Source: Synechococcus sp. BIOS-U3-1 (GTDB lineage: Bacteria > Cyanobacteriota > Cyanobacteriia > PCC-6307 > Cyanobiaceae). Taken from it: a DNA stretch of 64,000 bases. Positions 47,038-64,000 of the stretch are shown one piece after another. The stretch covers positions 2,480,001 through 2,544,000 of the forward strand of contig NZ_CP047936.1 in assembly GCF_014279975.1 (NCBI RefSeq), in the 5' to 3' direction. The notes beneath the pieces were generated by a model. That model had not been told where the DNA came from. It searched no databases and saw nothing but the letters and a program-made list of their open reading frames with translations. A program made the translations under genes and the position numbers. The stretch's first letter is position 1; each line of letters begins with the position of its first letter.

Positions 47038-47157
47038 GGCCTGAACTCTGACAACGATCAGTGCATCCAACAACATCCAAATCAGACGATTGAAACGAGC
47101 TCAGAGTCACATTCAGCGAACGATGGCAGGATTCGATTGATCAGATCGATCGAACCG

Positions 47158-47868
47158 ATGAACTTCTTCCGCCAGATCGTCGTCTTCAGTTCCTGCCTGA
47201 CAGTCTCATTGGCTGGAACTGCTCCGGTTTTTGCTGACTCACAGAAAGCCACCATTCAAGAAATCCTGGACGGAGACGAGCTGTTCATCGACGATCAAAA
47301 AGCCAAAATCGAAGAAAAAGCACAGCCACCACAAGTCATCAGCACAGGCCTGAGCCGCGGCCAGATTGCCTTCAGCGGCGGCGCTGTCGGTCGAATCAAC
47401 CGCCAATCGCTGGTCAAGCTCGGCAGCAGCTGTTTCCTGCTGAACAAAGGCCAGATTCTGATCTCAGGACGTCAGGACGGTTGTACAGCTTCAAGTCGAT
47501 TGAGCGTTCGCGGCACCAATTACGTTCTCAAAATCAGTGATGACGGCAGTGCAGATCTGGCCGTGCTGGAAGGGTCCGTTGAAGTCACGGACAACAGCGG
47601 TGAAAAGGAGGCTGTCACCGTTGAAGCCGGCCAACGCCTTCAACTCAGCCCGGCGGGTGTGGTGATCGGACTGCTGCAATTGGCAGCCGGGGACTACCAG
47701 AGAATCCTTGATGGTCCCCTGTTCATCGGCTACACAGCGCCATTGCCGGGGTTGGCTGATCTCAGGCGTTATCTGAATCTGAATGTGCCTGGGTTACGCA
47801 TCCCCAGCGTGCCGGGAAGCCAAATCCGAATCACACCCAGCCTGCCCAGCCCAGTTCGTTTCTTCTGA
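47158..47868 (+). CDS. Exported FecR-domain protein (unit A of cyclase pair)
   Basis: 236 residues. A signal peptide (FRQIVVFSSCLTVSLAGTAPVFA, 4-26) is followed by a FecR-type beta domain (STGLSRGQIAFSGGAVGRINRQS; LSVRGTNYVLKISDDGSADLAVLEGSVEV; VEAGQRLQLSPAG). Two Cys at 92 and 109 are spaced exactly as in the second FecR protein of the window (90 and 107), suggesting a conserved disulfide. There is no TonB-receptor or sigma-factor gene nearby, so this is not a classical Fec regulator. Instead the next gene, 35 bp downstream, is a CHASE2 cyclase. A periplasmic partner of the cyclase is inferred. Confidence 0.85.
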   Translation: MNFFRQIVVFSSCLTVSLAGTAPVFADSQKATIQEILDGDELFIDDQKAKIEEKAQPPQVISTGLSRGQIAFSGGAVGRINRQSLVKLGSSCFLLNKGQILISGRQDGCTASSRLSVRGTNYVLKISDDGSADLAVLEGSVEVTDNSGEKEAVTVEAGQRLQLSPAGVVIGLLQLAAGDYQRILDGPLFIGYTAPLPGLADLRRYLNLNVPGLRIPSVPGSQIRITPSLPSPVRFF

Positions 47869-47903
47869 TGGCCTGATCACCCCAACTCCACGTACCACGG
47901 CGG

Positions 47904-49778
47904 ATGAGAACCACCACCGGACAGGCCAGAACAAGCATCGCGATCACGCTGTTCGGCTTGCTCTGTGGTGGCCTCGGCGGCTGGCCACCCGCTCTTTGGC
48001 GCAGCTGGTCTAAAGACATCAGCGATCAGATCACACTCTGGGCCGGGCCCAGCACACCTCCGGCAGAGGTAGTGGTCATCGCCGTGGATGATGCATCTCT
48101 GCAGCAGGCAAGATGGGTTCTGGAGGATACGTACCCAGATCCCTGGAGCGAAGGTCTCGACCGCTGGCCTTGGCCAAGAGCGGTCTACGGGCAGCTGATT
48201 GAACGCGTCATCGCAGCTGGCAGTCGTGGTGTAGCGATCAATGTGCTGTTTGCCGGGCAAAGCATCTATGGCCCTGAGGATGATGCTCGCTTCGCGGGAA
48301 CACTGAAGCGCAATCGTTCATCTGTGGCTCTGGCCGCCGAAATGATGGAACCGGTTGATCGCCAGGGGGCGGGCGGGCTCTCCCTCGAACCCCCCGCATC
48401 AACCCTGCTGGATGCTCTGGGTGGCCTGCCCTATCTGGGCCTCACCAACATGCTCAACGCCGAAGACGGCAGTATCGGTCCACATCCAGAAGCCTATGGA
48501 CATCGGGTGCTGCGGCCTTACGGCTTCGAGTTGCAGCAATCCCTCCCATCTGCCCTGCTGAAGATCGCCGGGCTCGAACCACCGCTCGATCAGGCTGATC
48601 GTTCGCTACGGCTGTATGGACCAGAGGGAACCATCACCCGACTGTCAGCCTGGGAAGTGCTGGACCCGCAGCGCTGGCGCAATCACCCCTTGCGAGCCAG
48701 GCTCAGGGACAGTCTGGTGCTGATCGGTCCAACGCTCGAAGACAACCAGAGCGGACAGTCCACACCCTTTGGAACCCTATCTGGGGTGGAACTGCTGGCC
48801 ACAGCAACCGCCAATGACCTCGACGGCAGCGGCCTGCGTCAATGGCCTCAGCATCCCTGGCAGAAAGCTCTGTTCAGCGCTGCCTGCAGCTGGCTGATTG
48901 CCTACCTGGCCACGCGACGCCTCACGCTGCGCTGGCGGCTGGTCACCTGCTCACTCGGTCTGACCAGCCTCCTTCTGATCAGCATCATCACGCTTGTGCA
49001 ACGCCAGACCGTGCTGCCTTTGCTGGCACCAAGTGCCGGGGTCGTTGGTCTGGCTTCCACACTTGCCGTCAGCAGTTTCTGGCGGGAAGAGCAAGAGCGT
49101 CGACGACTCCGCCAGACGTTTGAACGCTACGTCTCTCCAAGCGTGGTCCAGGAAATCCTCAAAGACCGCGACAGCGCCGAGGGAATTCTTAGAGGCAAGA
49201 CGCTTGCAGTGACAGTCCTGTTCAGTGACCTTGAGGGATTCACGGCCCTAACCCGAGAACGATCGCAACAAGGGCGCAGCGAAGAGCTCATCCATCAGCT
49301 GAATCGCTACCTGGGCCGAATGGTGGAGGTGATCACCCAGCATGGGGGCACGGTCGACAAGTTCATCGGCGATTGCGTCATGGCCGTTTTTGGATCACCC
49401 GTCAGTCGAGGGACTGAGCTGGAAGCCAGGCAGGCAGTTCGTTGTGCTGTAGCCATGCGTCAGGCCTTGGAAGAACTCAATCAGGAGTGGACAGAAAGGG
49501 GGCTTGATCCGCTCAGCTGTGGAATCGGCCTAGCCAGCGGGGAAGCGGTGGTTGGCCAGATCGGCAGTCCACAACGGATGGATTTCACCGTGATCGGCGA
49601 CACGGTCAACCTGTCCAGCCGCCTGGAATCACTGACCAGAAAGCTCGGCACGCCCGTCCTGATGGATGAGCAAACTGCACTCCTTGCTGGGGCTGAGATC
49701 GCCACAGATGATCTCGGTGAGCAGGCAATCAAGGGTATGGATCGCTGCCAGGTCTATCGACCCAGGCTCACCCCTTGA
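47904..49778 (+). CDS. CHASE2-domain class III adenylate cyclase, copy A
   Basis: 624 residues. One N-terminal helix (about 10-32) precedes an extracytoplasmic CHASE2 sensor (VVVIAVDDASLQQA; LDRWPWPRAVYGQLIERV; to about 300). Three membrane helices (about 310-400) and a cytoplasmic class III cyclase domain (about 430-615) follow. Metal-binding Asp are D442 (FSDLEGFT) and D490 (DKFIGD); the purine-selecting Lys is K486 with Thr in DFTVIGD, the cAMP-forming set; Asn and Arg of NLSSRLE complete the site. It should be catalytically competent. It follows the FecR gene closely and overlaps gatB (convergent) by 11 bp. Confidence 0.93.
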   Translation: MRTTTGQARTSIAITLFGLLCGGLGGWPPALWRSWSKDISDQITLWAGPSTPPAEVVVIAVDDASLQQARWVLEDTYPDPWSEGLDRWPWPRAVYGQLIERVIAAGSRGVAINVLFAGQSIYGPEDDARFAGTLKRNRSSVALAAEMMEPVDRQGAGGLSLEPPASTLLDALGGLPYLGLTNMLNAEDGSIGPHPEAYGHRVLRPYGFELQQSLPSALLKIAGLEPPLDQADRSLRLYGPEGTITRLSAWEVLDPQRWRNHPLRARLRDSLVLIGPTLEDNQSGQSTPFGTLSGVELLATATANDLDGSGLRQWPQHPWQKALFSAACSWLIAYLATRRLTLRWRLVTCSLGLTSLLLISIITLVQRQTVLPLLAPSAGVVGLASTLAVSSFWREEQERRRLRQTFERYVSPSVVQEILKDRDSAEGILRGKTLAVTVLFSDLEGFTALTRERSQQGRSEELIHQLNRYLGRMVEVITQHGGTVDKFIGDCVMAVFGSPVSRGTELEARQAVRCAVAMRQALEELNQEWTERGLDPLSCGIGLASGEAVVGQIGSPQRMDFTVIGDTVNLSSRLESLTRKLGTPVLMDEQTALLAGAEIATDDLGEQAIKGMDRCQVYRPRLTP

Positions 49779-55075: not shown

Positions 55076-56545
55076 ATGACTCTGACTCTGAGCATTCTGG
55101 CAATTTTGACGCTGCTCACAGTTCATCGAGTCTGCAGGCGCCAACATCTCAGCCCACCGCCCTTACGACTGCCTCTGATTGCAGCCATCGGCATCCCTGT
55201 GCTGAACAAGCTGGCTGAAATCGTCAGCTACGGGGGCCTGCCGGTGCTGCAGAGCTCGCTAGCAGCATCCATCACTCTGCTTTGGGCTCTGAACCTGGTC
55301 CGAATCCTGACTTGGGCCATCCTGCAAATTCCTGCTGAACTCGGCTGGTGGAAACCCACTGCCAAGATCCTGCGCGACCTGCTGACCCTTGCAGTGATCA
55401 CGGTCGTCACGATGGTGGTGATTCACCGAGACTTCCAGGTCAATCTTGTCGGGCTGGCAGCCACGTCAGCCGTCGTCACCGCCGTCATCGGTCTTGCTGC
55501 GCAGGAGACGCTGAAAAATCTGTTCGCAGGCATCTCACTGCAAGTTGATTCACCGTTCGAAGAAGGTGACTGGATTGACCTGGGTTCAGCAACCGGCGTC
55601 GTGACATCGCTCCGTTTAATGACGACCCGAGTACGCGGACTAGACGGCTCAATCACCGTGGTACCGAACAGCCGCATCGCCGTGGAGGGGCTGCGCCGCT
55701 TCAAACCTGAAGAACCCGTTGGACAGATGATTGATGTGGGATTGGATTACAGCCTGCCTCCAAGCCAGGCGATCCAGTTGCTGCAACAAACTCTTCAACG
55801 CAACCGCAAGGTGCTCCGTCAACCAACCCCGAAAGTCTGGGTGTCGTCCTTCGAAGACAGCTCAATCACCTACCGCTTACTGACCTGGCAGACATCACCA
55901 CTGGAATTACGGCATCTGAGGAGCACAGTGCTTGAACAGATTTGGTACGCCCTCCATCGCGTTGACCAGTCCATCCCCTACCCAATTCGAGACATTCGCA
56001 CCAAGCCCAGCCAAGCCAAGTTGCCATCCAATGACATCACGTTGGAACAAAAGCAAAACCTCCTGGCCTCAACTGAAATCTTCAGTCATCTCAATGAGCA
56101 TCAGCTTGCAATGCTGGCGGACCTGGCAAGCTGCGAAACCTTTGCACCCGGCGAATCGATCGTTAGGCAAGGAGAGCGCGGTGACAGCCTATATCTCGTA
56201 GTTCGTGGAACCTTGGAGGTGTTACAGACAAACGCCAATAACTCCACCACCCAGCCAAGCCGACATGTCGCGGATCTTGAGACAAGTGACAGCTTCGGCG
56301 AGATGGCACTCTGCACCGGTGAAGTTCGTTCAGCAAGTGTGATCTGCAAGAGCGAATGCGTCTTGATCGAGATCGAGCGCAAACACCTTCTGCCACTGCT
56401 CGAAGAACAACCAGAAATTCTCGAAACAATGGGCTCGATCATGGCCGCACGGCAGCAACAACTCAAAGTCAACAAAGAGCAACGCGCTGAAACCCGTCGA
56501 CTCGCGTTGATCGCACGCATGCAGAGGCTTTTTAACCTCACCTGA
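55076..56545 (+). CDS. MscS-family channel with C-terminal cyclic-nucleotide-binding domain
   Basis: 489 residues. Several membrane helices (about 1-125) lead into the MscS pore helix and beta domain (LAATSAVVTAVIGLAAQETLKNLFAGISLQ; FEEGDWIDLGSATGVV; VVPNSRIAVEGLRRFK). A cNMP-binding barrel follows at about 345-470 with the phosphate-binding cassette FGEMALCTGEVRSASV. Its Glu and Arg are intact, so it can be expected to bind a cyclic nucleotide. This architecture is that of the bacterial cyclic-nucleotide-gated MscS (bCNG) group. Together with two cyclases nearby it is a likely output of local cAMP. It directly follows speA, a regulatory coupling worth noting. Confidence 0.92.
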   Translation: MTLTLSILAILTLLTVHRVCRRQHLSPPPLRLPLIAAIGIPVLNKLAEIVSYGGLPVLQSSLAASITLLWALNLVRILTWAILQIPAELGWWKPTAKILRDLLTLAVITVVTMVVIHRDFQVNLVGLAATSAVVTAVIGLAAQETLKNLFAGISLQVDSPFEEGDWIDLGSATGVVTSLRLMTTRVRGLDGSITVVPNSRIAVEGLRRFKPEEPVGQMIDVGLDYSLPPSQAIQLLQQTLQRNRKVLRQPTPKVWVSSFEDSSITYRLLTWQTSPLELRHLRSTVLEQIWYALHRVDQSIPYPIRDIRTKPSQAKLPSNDITLEQKQNLLASTEIFSHLNEHQLAMLADLASCETFAPGESIVRQGERGDSLYLVVRGTLEVLQTNANNSTTQPSRHVADLETSDSFGEMALCTGEVRSASVICKSECVLIEIERKHLLPLLEEQPEILETMGSIMAARQQQLKVNKEQRAETRRLALIARMQRLFNLT

Positions 56546-56575: not shown

Positions 56576-57262
56576 TCAGGGAATCAGATCACGCTTGCGA
56601 AGCGGCATGAGATCAGCCAGACGCAAGCACCCGTTCTGCTCACTAATCGTTCCTCGAGTCCGCAGCTTGCTGAGCGTGCGTGAAGCAGTCTCCCTCGCCA
56701 AACCGGCTAGAAGGGCGATCTCCCTCTGTGCCAATGGCGGGAGTTCCGCCTGCAAGTCCTCCCCTCCTGAGCTTTTACGGGCCAAATACGCCAGCGCATC
56801 CAGCACCCGAGTGGTGGCATCGGCGCTCTGCAAAGCGAAACGCTGGTTGAGATCACGCAGTCGACTGGCCTCCAAGCGTGCCAGCCCCAAAGCGAATGGA
56901 GCGAGCTGACCCAGCAGCGATGCAAAGGGGGCAGATCGCATCTTGATCAGATTCAGAGGCGTCAGAGCGACAACATCTGCTGAACGTGTAGCGCCATCCA
57001 GTGCTGCCATTTCACCAAAAACATCACCAGGGCCCAGCAGCGACATGATGACTTCATCCCCGTCAGCTGTGTAAGTGCGCACCTTGGCTAAGCCATCGCG
57101 GATCAAGAACAGTGATTCACCCCAGTCCTGTTCCATGACGATCACCTGGTCGAGCTGGTGACTGATCACCCGATGACGATCAAGCAACAGAGTCAGCTGT
57201 TCAACCGGTAGGCAGGCAAACAGCGGCATGGACCCAAGTTCCTCAGGTGTAAGCGCAGACAT
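56576..57262 (-). CDS. Crp/Fnr-family transcriptional regulator
   Basis: 228 residues. N-terminal cNMP-type barrel (about 10-130) with cassette FGEMAALDGATRSADV, where the Arg-Ser-Ala typical of cAMP contact is present. The dimerisation helix is at about 125-150, followed by a Crp-type winged HTH (about 175-215, LAQREIALLAGLARETASRTLSKLRTRGTI). DNA binding and cAMP response are therefore both plausible; cyanobacterial relatives such as NtcA sense other ligands, so the effector is not certain. It is divergent from the cNBD-remnant gene across a 185-bp spacer, which may hold its own operator. Confidence 0.9.
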   Translation of the reverse strand: MSALTPEELGSMPLFACLPVEQLTLLLDRHRVISHQLDQVIVMEQDWGESLFLIRDGLAKVRTYTADGDEVIMSLLGPGDVFGEMAALDGATRSADVVALTPLNLIKMRSAPFASLLGQLAPFALGLARLEASRLRDLNQRFALQSADATTRVLDALAYLARKSSGGEDLQAELPPLAQREIALLAGLARETASRTLSKLRTRGTISEQNGCLRLADLMPLRKRDLIP

Positions 57263-57447
57263 CGTTGATAAAGAGTGCCACCGGAAGGAAGGCCAGCCAC
57301 AGAATCACCATGACGATGTTGGAGTCAGGCCGCAACTAGCTCTGCCCAAACCAGTGGTTCGGATCTGAGGAACTTCAGAACATGACGTGAACAAAGCCTG
57401 ATCGACCTCCTATGACCAGCATGAGCTCATCCGCTCCCCGGCGACAC

Positions 57448-57858
57448 ATGCAGGGCAGGAACCGACAGCTCAGCACGATGTGCAACCGGTTACGGATGCT
57501 GTTGAGCAACCATCGATCAGCCTTGAATCACAGCACACTCAAAACGGCGCTCACAGAGGTAGTAATCCAGCAAGACACACCGGCTGAACGCTTCCTAGAC
57601 GTATTGGCGGATGACCTTCTCCAAGCCATGATCTATGACAGCGATCTGGTGATGGAACCACTAGGTCTCAGCAGTCGCCCCTGCAGGAAGCCCAATCAGC
57701 ATCTGGCACTGTTTCTGGAAGGGCTCGAAGCCCTGAACAGCAGAGAATCCCTAACGCTTGAACCTTGCTGCCAAGAGCTGGGAAAGGAGTCCGATCAGAT
57801 CCTTGCCATTCCCGCAGATCGACTGCGAAGACTGGATCAGATTCTTAACCAACGATGA
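57448..57858 (+). CDS. cNMP-binding-like protein with the binding barrel deleted in frame
   Basis: About 136 residues. It matches the protein at 63212-63787 over the N-terminal helix (NRLRMLLSNHRSALNHSTLKT against DRLRMLLSTHLSTVSHQTLTA), the VIQQDTPAE strand, and the whole C-terminal module (ADDLLQAMIYDSDLVMEPLGLSS). It lacks about 55 residues in between, residues 49-103 of the paralogue, which hold the barrel and the phosphate-binding cassette. The frame is intact, and its stop overlaps the cyclase start by 4 bp (ATGA). ATG at 57412 is an alternative start; 57448 aligns with the paralogue. It cannot bind a cyclic nucleotide, and may persist for coupling or for its C-terminal module. Confidence 0.8.
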   Translation: MQGRNRQLSTMCNRLRMLLSNHRSALNHSTLKTALTEVVIQQDTPAERFLDVLADDLLQAMIYDSDLVMEPLGLSSRPCRKPNQHLALFLEGLEALNSRESLTLEPCCQELGKESDQILAIPADRLRRLDQILNQR

Positions 57859-59756
57859 GAAGAATCTCATTTCTCCGATGGATGCGTGGCCACAGCGCTG
57901 TTCTGATCCTGAGTGGGGTTATTGCTATTGGCGGTGGTCTGAGCAGCACCTGGTTGAGGGGCATCGAGTTGCGTTTCGCAGGAGTGGTGCAGGAAACCCG
58001 CGGGGTTCGATCCGTACCTGATCGGTTGATAATCGTTGCCATTGACGACTTCAGCCTGCAACAGGCAGCGAATGCCGATCTCAGCAACGACCCGCTGCTG
58101 CAAAGCCTGAGCCAGTGGCCCTGGCGACGACGCATCCATGCCACGGTGCTGGATCGCCTGATCGAAGCAGGGGCGACCGCGGTGGCTTTCGATTTGCTCT
58201 TTGAGTCGCCCAGCAGCCATGGAGAAGCAGATGATGCTGCATTCGCCAAGGTCCTGAGACGTCATCGTGAGCAGGTGGTGCTTGGAGTTCAGGTTCTCAG
58301 CAGTCAGGGCCCCGTTGCAGGGATGTCCCTCTTAGATGTCACACCAACCCTGCGGCCTGCTGACACACCCATAGATCGAGGACTACTCAACGGCGAACCG
58401 GACAGCGATGGAGTAATTCGACGCCGTCCGGGGCAAGTCACTCAGTTCATGCGTGAACAGTTGGATCCGTCCATACCGGATGGGCTGGCCATCGCGCTAC
58501 TCAAGAAACAAAAGCAAGCAGCTGATTTCAGCATCTTCAGCCAAGACCTTCTAGATCCCTACGGGCCTCCGGGCACCATCCCCACCCTCTCCATCTGGGA
58601 GCTACTTGAACCACAGGCCTACGCCTCGATCAAGAGGTCCGGTCGGCTGCGCAATGCCCTTGTTCTGGTGGGACCGACGGCAGCCGTGTTGCAGGATCTC
58701 CACCCGGCAGTGTTCTCAGGAGCTCAGGGCATGCCAGGAGTGGAACTGCATGCAACGGAACTGGCAAACCGTCTGGACTCCCGCTCACTGCGCTGGATCC
58801 CCACACCTGCAGGATGGAATCTGGTGATGGCGTTCCTAGTCATTGTCGCCGGGGTGAGCACAGCCCGGCTTGAACGACCACTTGCTCGCCTGGGCTTTCT
58901 CCTAAGCGCAGCAGGACTTTTGGTCGCAGGAAGTGCTGGTCTGATCGTCTGGGGCGGGGTTCTGCTGCCGATTCTGGGGGTGGCAGGAAGTGTGGCGATC
59001 ACCGGAATCGTGACAAGTGCCGATGCAACCGTGCGACTGCAGTGGCAGCGACGGCGTCTGCTCCGCACGCTTGGGCGCTATCTCTCTCCCGCTGTGGCAG
59101 CAAAGATCGCGGACCAGCCCGAGGAGACCGATGGTCTGCTGGGAGGACAACTAATGAATGTTGTAATCCTGATGAGCGACATCCGGGGCTTCACCGGCTT
59201 CACCCAGGAAATGACAGAACAAGGGAAGGTGAAGGAACTGGTCAACCGACTGAATCAATACTTCAGTGAGGTGGTGAATGCCGTGCATTCCGAACAGGGG
59301 ACCGTTGACAAATTCATCGGCGACGCTGTTCTGGCCGTGTTCGGTGCTCCGCTGAAACAAAGCCGAAGCGCGAATGTGCGTGCTGCGGTCAGAACCGCGC
59401 TCGCACTGCAGGAAAAGCTGGCGGTTCTGAATCGTGGCTGGGAAAAGCAAGGCCAAAAGCCATGGGAGCAGGTGATCGTGCTCAGCCATGGCTGGGTCTT
59501 GAGCGGCAACATCGGTTGTGCAAGCCGCATGGACTACACCGTCATCGGTGATGCCGTCAACACAGCCAGTCGCCTAGAGACAATCGCCAAACAAACCGGT
59601 CAGCTGATCGTAATAAGTGCCGCTGTGGCCGAGCAGCTCCCAAGTAATTTTCCTCTCCGGAACATCGGAACATTCGCCATGCGCGGGCAAGAGAAGCAAC
59701 AGGTGTTCGCACTTGGAACTGACACTGATGCTGACGACTGGCCAGACACTCTTTAG
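57855..59756 (+). CDS. CHASE2-domain class III adenylate cyclase, copy B
   Basis: 633 residues, same plan as copy A: one N-terminal helix, CHASE2 sensor (LIIVAIDDFSLQQA; LSQWPWRRRIHATVLDRLIEAG), three membrane helices (about 320-395), cytoplasmic cyclase domain. Catalytic residues occur at identical numbers: D442 (MSDIRGFTGFT), K486 and D490 (DKFIGDA), Thr in DYTVIGD, and Asn/Arg in NTASRLE. One region before that, VLSHGWVLSGNIG, departs from the usual GIG..xG pattern, but the key residues are kept. It follows the barrel-less cNBD gene with a 4-bp overlap and precedes the second FecR protein by 33 bp. Confidence 0.93.
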   Translation: MRRISFLRWMRGHSAVLILSGVIAIGGGLSSTWLRGIELRFAGVVQETRGVRSVPDRLIIVAIDDFSLQQAANADLSNDPLLQSLSQWPWRRRIHATVLDRLIEAGATAVAFDLLFESPSSHGEADDAAFAKVLRRHREQVVLGVQVLSSQGPVAGMSLLDVTPTLRPADTPIDRGLLNGEPDSDGVIRRRPGQVTQFMREQLDPSIPDGLAIALLKKQKQAADFSIFSQDLLDPYGPPGTIPTLSIWELLEPQAYASIKRSGRLRNALVLVGPTAAVLQDLHPAVFSGAQGMPGVELHATELANRLDSRSLRWIPTPAGWNLVMAFLVIVAGVSTARLERPLARLGFLLSAAGLLVAGSAGLIVWGGVLLPILGVAGSVAITGIVTSADATVRLQWQRRRLLRTLGRYLSPAVAAKIADQPEETDGLLGGQLMNVVILMSDIRGFTGFTQEMTEQGKVKELVNRLNQYFSEVVNAVHSEQGTVDKFIGDAVLAVFGAPLKQSRSANVRAAVRTALALQEKLAVLNRGWEKQGQKPWEQVIVLSHGWVLSGNIGCASRMDYTVIGDAVNTASRLETIAKQTGQLIVISAAVAEQLPSNFPLRNIGTFAMRGQEKQQVFALGTDTDADDWPDTL

Positions 59757-59789: not shown

Positions 59790-61736
<1,947 letters not shown>

Positions 61737-61760: not shown

Positions 61761-62423
61761 ATGCAAATCAATCTCCAAGAACGACTGCAGAGCCTGAAGC
61801 TTTTAGCCAGCCTTGCGGCATTCCTCAAAAACCCTGGCTCTCTAGACAGCGTCCTCGCAGTGAGCGCCAGCTTGAAGGACAGCCCGCTTGCCGAACAGAT
61901 GACCCGACATCTACTGGACAATCCCGACTTCGCCCAACTGGTAAAGAACGGTTGGCGTCCTCAGTCAATCGACTTGTCTGCACTCCAGACACTCCCGGCG
62001 GGCACGCTCGGACGCTGCTATGCCGATCAGCTCATTAGCCAGGGAATCACTCCCGACTCGCTGATCGACCCCTCACCCATCAACGATGAGCGTGATTACA
62101 TCACGCATCGCCTCAGGGAGACCCACGACATCACGCATGTATTGACCGGATTTGGAATCGATGGCGACAGTGAACTGGGCCTACAGGGATTCAACCTTGC
62201 CCAGAACCGATCACCACTGGCGGTGATGCTGATCTTCGGAGGCATGCTCACGGCACTTCAGAACGATGAACCTCTGGCCCCAATGCTGCGCGCACTGGCG
62301 AAAGGCTTCCAAATGGGACTGGATGCTGAGCTTGTGATCTCCCGCAAACTGGAAGAAGGCTGGGATCGCCCGCTCAACGAGTGGCGCAGTGAGCTGAGGC
62401 TTCCTGAAGCAATCCCTAGCTGA
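61761..62423 (+). CDS. Coq4-like protein
   Basis: 220 residues. The segment RETHDITHVLTGFGIDGDSE is the Coq4 family motif (HDxxH with a downstream Glu), followed by GLQGFNLAQNRSPLAVMLIFGG. Coq4 binds metal and supports ubiquinone assembly in eukaryotes. Cyanobacteria use plastoquinone, so the local role is open. No signal peptide, no obvious membrane helix. It is 24 bp after the FecR-barrel gene and 65 bp before a cNBD-like protein, so it is embedded in the cyclase B operon. Confidence 0.8.
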   Translation: MQINLQERLQSLKLLASLAAFLKNPGSLDSVLAVSASLKDSPLAEQMTRHLLDNPDFAQLVKNGWRPQSIDLSALQTLPAGTLGRCYADQLISQGITPDSLIDPSPINDERDYITHRLRETHDITHVLTGFGIDGDSELGLQGFNLAQNRSPLAVMLIFGGMLTALQNDEPLAPMLRALAKGFQMGLDAELVISRKLEEGWDRPLNEWRSELRLPEAIPS

Positions 62424-62488: not shown

Positions 62489-63055
62489 ATGTGGGGAGAC
62501 GAGCCTCAGCTGCAGGCCTTCCGAGAACGACTGAAACTCCTACTGGTTGGACACCAGCAGGAGCTCAATCCGGAGAAGATCGTCGCAGCAGAAGGAGACA
62601 TTCTGTTTCACCAGGGCGACTCGGTGAAGACATTGATGTTGCTGAACCAGGGCCGTGTCGCCGTTGACATTCATTTCGGCGATGAGATCCACACACTGGC
62701 AGAAGTTGAGGCCGTGGAATTACTTGGCGAAGTTGGTTTCTTCGCTAATGGCAAGCACTACGCCGACTTCCGGGTTGTCAATGGACCCGCAAAACTGCTG
62801 GCTATTCCAGGCCAAGCACTACTCCAGGCCATGTTGTTTGACTCTGATCTCGTGGTGGAGATGCTGTCACTGGTGAGTGAGCGCTGCCGCCGCGGCAATC
62901 AGGTCATCGCCATGCTGCTGAGTGGCATTGAAGCCGTACATGACGATTCCCAGGAGAAAATCGAACAAGCAACGACAGAGCTTGGGGGCATCCATTTCTG
63001 CATCTCCAAAGCCAGCAAACAACTGCAGCAGCTACGTCAACGGCAACGAAGTTGA
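62489..63055 (+). CDS. Stand-alone cNMP-binding-like protein with shared C-terminal module (paralogue 1)
   Basis: 188 residues. N-terminal helix (FRERLKLLLVGHQQ), a cNMP-type barrel (about 33-110; EGDILFHQGDSVKTLMLLNQG, cassette LLGEVGFFANGKHYADF), then a module shared with two neighbours (LLQAMLFDSDLVVEMLSLVSERCRRGNQ) in place of a helix-turn-helix. In the cassette the Arg that contacts the cyclic phosphate in CAP is replaced by His (GKHYAD). Ligand binding is doubtful; the fold is not. Cytoplasmic, no signal peptide. Confidence 0.85.
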   Translation: MWGDEPQLQAFRERLKLLLVGHQQELNPEKIVAAEGDILFHQGDSVKTLMLLNQGRVAVDIHFGDEIHTLAEVEAVELLGEVGFFANGKHYADFRVVNGPAKLLAIPGQALLQAMLFDSDLVVEMLSLVSERCRRGNQVIAMLLSGIEAVHDDSQEKIEQATTELGGIHFCISKASKQLQQLRQRQRS

Positions 63056-63211: not shown

Positions 63212-63787
63212 ATGAAGAGCGAAAACCAACAGCTCAACCAAATTCGTGATCGTCTGCGGATGTTGCTGAGCACCCATCTCTCCACAGTCAGCCATCAAAC
63301 GCTTACAGCAGCTGTGGGTGACGTGCTGATCCAACAGGACAGCCCTGCCGTAAAGGTGCTGATTGTGCAAACAGGGGAATTGAAAGTTGAGCGCTGTGAA
63401 CCAGGTGGCACGCCTCAAGTGATCGCCCGAATCGGACCGGATGAGCTGGTCGGAGAAATGGCGTTGATCGGTGATCAACACCACAGCGCAAGCGTCACAG
63501 TGAGTCGCGGACCGGCCGAGATCCTGGTGGTTAAGGCAGATGATCTACTTAAGGCTTCCATCTACGACAGCGACCTGGTGATGGAACTGCTGGCCCTAAG
63601 CAGCAGCCGCTGCCGCCAAACCAATCGCCATCTAACTTTCATCCTTGAAGCCCTAGGGGCTTTGGATCAAGAGGATTCCTCCGCACTGGATCGGTGCTGC
63701 AAAGAACTAGAGCAATGCTCTGATCCAGCCCTTTCCAATGCAGCCCGACGGTTGAGGCGACTGGCGCAAATACAGGAAAAACCATGA
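63212..63787 (+). CDS. Stand-alone cNMP-binding-like protein with shared C-terminal module (paralogue 2)
   Basis: 191 residues. Same plan as paralogue 1: N-terminal helix (RDRLRMLLSTHLSTVSHQ), barrel (about 35-108; VLIQQDSPAVKVLIVQTGELKV, cassette LVGEMALIGDQHHSASV) and C-terminal module (LLKASIYDSDLVMELLALSSSRCRQTNRHLTFILE). The cassette Glu is present but the Arg position is His (HHSAS). It is the full-length relative of the barrel-deleted gene at 57448, and DNA similarity between the two extends a little upstream of the starts. The 156-bp gap before it may hold its own promoter. Confidence 0.87.
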   Translation: MKSENQQLNQIRDRLRMLLSTHLSTVSHQTLTAAVGDVLIQQDSPAVKVLIVQTGELKVERCEPGGTPQVIARIGPDELVGEMALIGDQHHSASVTVSRGPAEILVVKADDLLKASIYDSDLVMELLALSSSRCRQTNRHLTFILEALGALDQEDSSALDRCCKELEQCSDPALSNAARRLRRLAQIQEKP

Positions 63788-64000
63788 GAGAACAACCCCA
63801 TCTCCGCTGAATTCCGCGTCATGGCGAGAACCCCATCTCAGTGGTTACTTCACAGCCGTCGCAGGAATCAGCCGGGATTGATTGAGCCGTGGACATCCAT
63901 CAAGCGATGAAGCAAGTGGGGGGGTCTTCGCCAACGGTGTTCATAACGTCAACTGGTGCGAAGCTGTTTCAGACCCTGCGATTCAACACGGTCTTCCAGT
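63788..64000. other. No gene recognised to window end
   Basis: 213 bp after paralogue 2 contain no open frame of convincing length on either strand and no recognisable RNA or terminator. It may be the upstream region of a gene beyond the window. Confidence 0.5.

Follow-up and report, generated by a model that had tools for sequence, protein, structure and literature searches.

Possible survival and later relaxation of a helical remnant in a CNB-family gene that lost its beta-roll ahead of a CHASE2-cyclase in Synechococcus sp. BIOS-U3-1

The closest described relatives of the CNB proteins considered here are regulators of the CRP/FNR family (2pqq, 3i54 and 4ev0), whose CNB domain is matched in sequence by a full-length protein encoded at 63212..63787 (+; 191 codons; referred to as 63212). 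In contrast to these regulators, neither 63212 nor its shorter relative at 57448..57858 (+; 136 codons; referred to as SHORT) has a Pfam match to an HTH domain. An Arg is a defining feature of the phosphate-binding cassette; at this position of its two best PDB relatives 63212 aligns a His (DQHHSA), while SHORT lacks the barrel altogether. The second described case is a class of pseudogenes. Pseudogenes can form through deletion between short direct repeats, and with these SHORT shares similar in-frame motifs at the breakpoints and further decay of the gene in another species (G001). Unlike such pseudogenes SHORT stayed open and, once the barrel was lost, shows signs of constraint at the codon level. 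As a mere relic the gene would be unremarkable, whereas a barrel-less CNB-family protein with signs of past selection is a novel form of a familiar type. For a stand-alone CNB protein the locus amounts to an internal deletion made by nature, in which the barrel was apparently lost in one step and two species can be compared for what selection retained. Literature searches, judged by title, yielded no paper concerning this gene cassette, which says little beyond the library searched.

The window, i.e. the whole stretch of 64,000 nucleotides analysed, comprises bases 2480001-2544000 of the single 2.71 Mb contig of the genome (G000), which by gene content and genome size presumably belongs to a marine-type picocyanobacterium. 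SHORT and 63212 begin at homologous start codons; with a further ATG in the same frame, at 57412, the ORF would extend to 148 codons. Alignment of both proteins confirmed the initial annotation that 63212 can be aligned at both ends of SHORT and that 55 codons are absent. They form a single gap corresponding to residues 49-103 of the paralogue, and the 134 retained codons are 53% identical in amino acids. The gap takes out the core of the CNB beta-roll: it removes most of the PF00027 match of 63212 (residues 36-114, 55 bits), and a Pfam search with SHORT gave no match at E<=0.1. According to the same alignment the phosphate-binding cassette is missing from SHORT. Its loss, as annotated, thus stands with respect to the extent of the gap; because of the His in 63212, however, the lost cassette was already non-canonical and canonical cAMP binding already doubtful. 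The retained frame and the ATGA overlap with the downstream cyclase were also confirmed. SHORT is open over 136 codons without the stop that would mark a disrupted pseudogene, and its stop codon overlaps the cyclase start at 57855-57858. AlphaFold models made from three window proteins were of poor quality. That of SHORT was all-helical with a pLDDT of 52, that of 63212 had a pLDDT of 55, both being of low confidence. A fold search with the 63212 model produced no match at E<=0.001; CRP-type structures ranked top with a TM of ~0.3, which we did not count as evidence.

The slot of SHORT is delimited by a divergent neighbour, a Crp-family regulator with HTH (56576..57262, -; Pfam), and by cycB, a CHASE2 plus adenylate/guanylate cyclase gene (57855..59756, +; Pfam). 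A gene that we named FecR-like by eye, from its resemblance to 47137-47868, follows cycB (59790..61736, +); a FecR Pfam match of its own is absent. Among the 31 genomes of the genus in our collection, G000 included, nine carry a cycB orthologue of about 60% identity or more, with the own genome counted. Cyclase matches at E<=1e-60 were obtained in 12 of the 31, three of which possess only the other cyclase type at 36-37%. Directly upstream of cycB, seven of the nine cyclase genomes (G004, G007, G009, G013, G020, G025 and G026) have a full-length CNB ORF of 178-192 codons; the remaining two hold SHORT (G000) and a broken remnant (G001). With start codons placed by hand, the CNB stop overlaps the cyclase start (ATGA, GTGA or TAATG) in five of the seven full-length cassettes, and gaps of 2 bases (G025) and about 14 bases (G020) separate the two genes in the others. 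SHORT likewise lies between the Crp-type regulator and the CHASE2-cyclase and has the coupled start. Because full-length CNB ORFs stand at the syntenic place in seven of nine genomes, the gene in the slot is best taken for a CNB gene that belongs to the cassette itself. Simple decay had been anticipated in the event that the full-length form was absent in all relatives and the C-terminal part under no selection; the full-length form is present at the locus in these seven. 63212-type stand-alone CNB proteins have the N-terminal segment, the DSDLVMELLALSSxRCR helix and the C-terminal helices in common with SHORT, and genes of this type are found directly before the CHASE2-cyclase in the seven full-length cassettes. 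Unlike them SHORT is devoid of residues 49-103 and departs from 7 of the 39 residues that are invariant in 12 full-length relatives.

Several features of the surroundings were recorded alongside. A mechanosensitive-channel protein with a C-terminal CNB domain (55076-56545; Pfam) adjoins the cassette. The gene after the cyclase contains a long Pro-Glu repeat at 61398-61553, and the matching residues 531-591 in G001 fail to align. A second FecR-like and CHASE2-cyclase pair occurs in the window at 47137-49778 with the gene order opposite to that of the cassette; its cyclase shares no more than about 35% identity with cycB at 57855.

Is SHORT a recent duplicate of 63212 that lost its barrel, as the initial annotation had offered as one of two readings? 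Both belong to the same family. In the protein tree SHORT fell inside a 13-row clade (support 100/99), its placement within the clade being weakly supported, and the AU test on protein did not reject uniting SHORT with the genes of 63212 type from G000, G001 and G002 (p=0.158). In G000 the upstream sequences of SHORT and 63212 also resemble one another, with a local score of 49 compared to at most 33 in 300 shuffles. Yet the codon-partitioned DNA AU test rejected the grouping (p=0.005), and in the best of five DNA trees SHORT stood next to the 'x' copies of G016, G024, G002 and G003. The nucleotide-level alignment, which had been proposed as a check, showed that SHORT and 63212 have reached saturation at synonymous sites, to the point that an NG86 dS could not be computed, and so the pair is not recent. 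The upstream sequence of SHORT also reached scores of 42 and 35 with the genes of G025 and G021 (shuffles at most 37 and 33), while those with G001, G002, G004, G009 and G013 (30, 30, 31, 24 and 29) did not exceed the best shuffle. The upstream likeness of SHORT and 63212 points towards duplication. Nevertheless, a recent gene duplication is disfavoured by the DNA trees, by the saturated sites, by the full-length genes in the syntenic slot and by the deletion in common with G001, and we consider it highly improbable.

The deletion junction of SHORT is located at 57580..57603 (+; PAER / FLDV), where 55 codons are lost compared to 63212. DNA relatives were sought in the 31 genomes of the genus and in 300 genomes drawn from the family. 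The G001 slot matched with 81% identity over 104 query bases that span the junction, and the match was ungapped across it. In a protein search 22 of 60 relatives gave a match, but the G001 remnant was missed; it was found by the DNA search alone. Outside the genus three genomes gave four DNA matches of 28-44 bases, none of which spanned the junction. A protein scan of genome contigs returned only two Providencia loci with 24 residues at 58%, which were taken as chance. The G001 frame is disrupted in the manner of a pseudogene: it has lost its start together with about 36 codons, a single base ahead of the DSDLVM helix and two further internal stretches. ATGA is retained at the end of its last frame, while the broken frame preceding it ends in TGATG. 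The same ungapped junction in a sister species makes an assembly error very unlikely; such an error had been envisaged as a cause, and together with the single-contig assembly of G000 this led us to reject an assembly or sequencing error as next to impossible.

Full-length homologues have similar in-frame motifs (PAE-x-hydrophobic) at either end of the lost stretch of 165 bp, for example PAERVLLV at the front and PAEILVV at the back in G009, 56 codons apart. Since the deletion joins two such motifs the frame was kept. Judged by these motifs, the loss would have arisen by recombination or slippage between them. The simplest account of the junction found in both species would be a single deletion that preceded the divergence of the G000 and G001 alleles. 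All differences between the alleles would then postdate the deletion, on the assumption that it was one event inherited by both.

SHORT and the G001 remnant can be compared at 57 codons in hand-placed blocks. The N-terminal part of SHORT has no counterpart in G001, and the omega values of the comparison therefore cover the C-terminal part. The changes numbered 11, 10 and 24 at codon positions 1, 2 and 3, i.e. 24 of 57 third positions changed compared to 21 of 114 at positions 1 and 2 (Fisher p=0.001). Pairwise omega was 0.15 (p=1.2e-5), a value reached by none of 200 neutral simulated pairs. When both branches after the split were treated as one class, omega was 0.25 and 0.27 in two topologies, with p against 1 of 1.7e-4 and 3.1e-4. 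The SHORT branch alone yielded 0.29, 0.30 and 0.16 in three topologies with p against 1 of 0.114, 0.110 and 0.042. By block, the third-position excess was not significant in the first 32 codons, which span the junction (p=0.25). It was detected in the 43 codons without the stop-anchored tail (p=0.026), in the 14 codons of the tail alone (p=0.0055) and in the LALFLEGLEAL block of 11 codons (p=0.02). The block-wise tests thus locate the selection signal in few codons of the C-terminal part. Between G000 and G001 the SHORT slot had an NG86 dS of 0.96, the cyclase one of 0.80, the FecR-like gene one of 1.75 and 63212 one of 0.22; five genes outside or flanking the cassette (a gene which we take to be speA-like, MscS-CNB, Crp-type, Coq4-like and cNMP1) had values of 0.50-0.83. 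Three of the seven departures of SHORT from invariant residues are to proline, and six controls depart at 0-4 of 39-43 invariant residues. Taken together, amino-acid constraint on SHORT following the deletion is likely, with moderate support. The dN/dS check on the retained parts, as suggested in the initial annotation, came out significantly below 1 for the pair and for the two-branch class, and for the SHORT branch in one of three topologies. The annotated idea of an N- and C-terminal module that is useful alone receives moderate support from the selection on its C-terminal part after the deletion; the loss of the gene in G001, the missing invariant residues and a SHORT branch not clearly below 1 speak against use at present.

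A plain pseudogene in progress would explain part of these data. The barrel loss would then have ended the function, the frame in G000 would be open by chance and the omega signal would reflect few codons or a brief earlier constraint. The broken G001 copy, the invariant residues lost in SHORT and the proline substitutions among them, the SHORT-branch omega that is indistinguishable from 1 in two of three topologies and the lack of a significant excess at third positions in the 32 codons that span the junction all fit this explanation; under neutral substitutions alone the chance of a still-open frame is 0.04-0.35, depending on the branch length assumed. It is at odds with the low pairwise omega between the two deletion-bearing alleles, which the neutral simulations did not reproduce, and with 136 codons free of stops. 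We regard it as unlikely, though a serious contender. Another explanation is that SHORT was kept open as a leader frame, from which ribosomes restart on the cyclase at the ATGA while the amino acids matter little. The start overlaps of five full-length cassettes and G000, subject to the hand-placed starts, and the ATGA and TGATG frame ends of the G001 remnant agree with this. On the other hand, if coupling were all that mattered, codon positions 1 and 2 should not be conserved relative to position 3, and the TGA in ATGA is partly dictated by the cyclase start. A role as mere leader frame appears doubtful to us. The retained-module, pseudogene and coupling-leader readings are not exclusive in time.

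We therefore give about an even chance to SHORT being an old helical remnant, once selected and now relaxing. In this sequence of events SHORT would be the CNB gene proper to a cassette of Crp-type regulator, CNB protein, CHASE2-cyclase and FecR-like gene, instead of a recent 63212 copy. The common ancestor of the G000 and G001 alleles would have lost the 165 bp between the in-frame motifs, whereby the beta-roll core was removed and the N-terminal segment, the C-terminal helices and the ATGA at the cyclase start were left. Selection on the amino acids, to the extent that the C-terminal part allows a test, would then have maintained the remaining protein for some time, before constraint relaxed in G000 and the gene was lost in G001. 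We infer that the C-terminal helices may have served as a protein-contact module independent of nucleotide, e.g. by pairing with the coupled cyclase or with other CNB proteins, and that SHORT may once have been a partner of that cyclase or of CNB proteins of full length. Should the helices indeed have a role by themselves, the C-terminal ones would be the working surface of the cassette. A more specific version is tentative and rather improbable: the barrel-less protein could have acted as a nucleotide-blind partner whose helices, fixed in ratio to the cyclase by translational coupling, set the assembly of the cyclase or of a full-length CNB protein, with the sensing half supplied in trans from 63212.

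The full-length gene 63212, which has slot-like upstream sequence and a Pfam CNB match (our dn copy), stands 5.4 kb away and would derive from a second cassette now without its own cyclase. Behind it, at 63784..63889 (+), lies a cycB stump of about 105 bp in the register of the 5' end of G009 cycB, with a stop at codon 9. It matched the first 107 bases of the G009 cyclase in register with 73% identity over 93 columns (E=8e-9). The 63212-type genes of G001 and G002 are likewise followed by matches in this register, shorter ones of 57 and 45 columns, respectively (E=1.7e-4 each), while none of 20 shuffled control sequences matched at E<=0.01. Two further G001 matches, one of 35 columns on the opposite strand (E=0.002) and one of 22 columns (E=0.007), were out of register and were taken as chance. 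Upstream of 63212 local scores of 103 and 85, determined without shuffles, were obtained with the slot genes of G009 and G004. On the grounds of the stump and the slot-like upstream sequence, the most likely origin of 63212 is a second CNB-cyclase cassette whose cyclase has since been lost. The two cassettes would thus show complementary losses, of the barrel in one and of the cyclase in the other. If the helical part of SHORT has no role, the locus would clearly illustrate how, in a compact genome, two signalling cassettes decay in complementary ways.

The dS of 63212 among G000, G001 and G002 was 0.15-0.22, compared to 0.37-0.74 for three nearby genes, with some of the bootstrap intervals overlapping slightly. 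The low value suggests arrival or exchange of 63212 after the species split. With arrival after the split, the barrel loss would have come first and 63212 later, an order that gene conversion could mimic. Between the two cassettes lies a gene for a Coq4-like protein (61761-62423; Pfam PF05019), which was present in 14 of the 20 stretches examined; cyanobacteria make plastoquinone rather than ubiquinone. It is followed by cNMP1 (62489..63055, +; Pfam), a second stand-alone CNB gene and more distant paralogue. The cNMP1 of G004 (L054:17620-17928) looks broken, as only residues 86-187 of 188 align.
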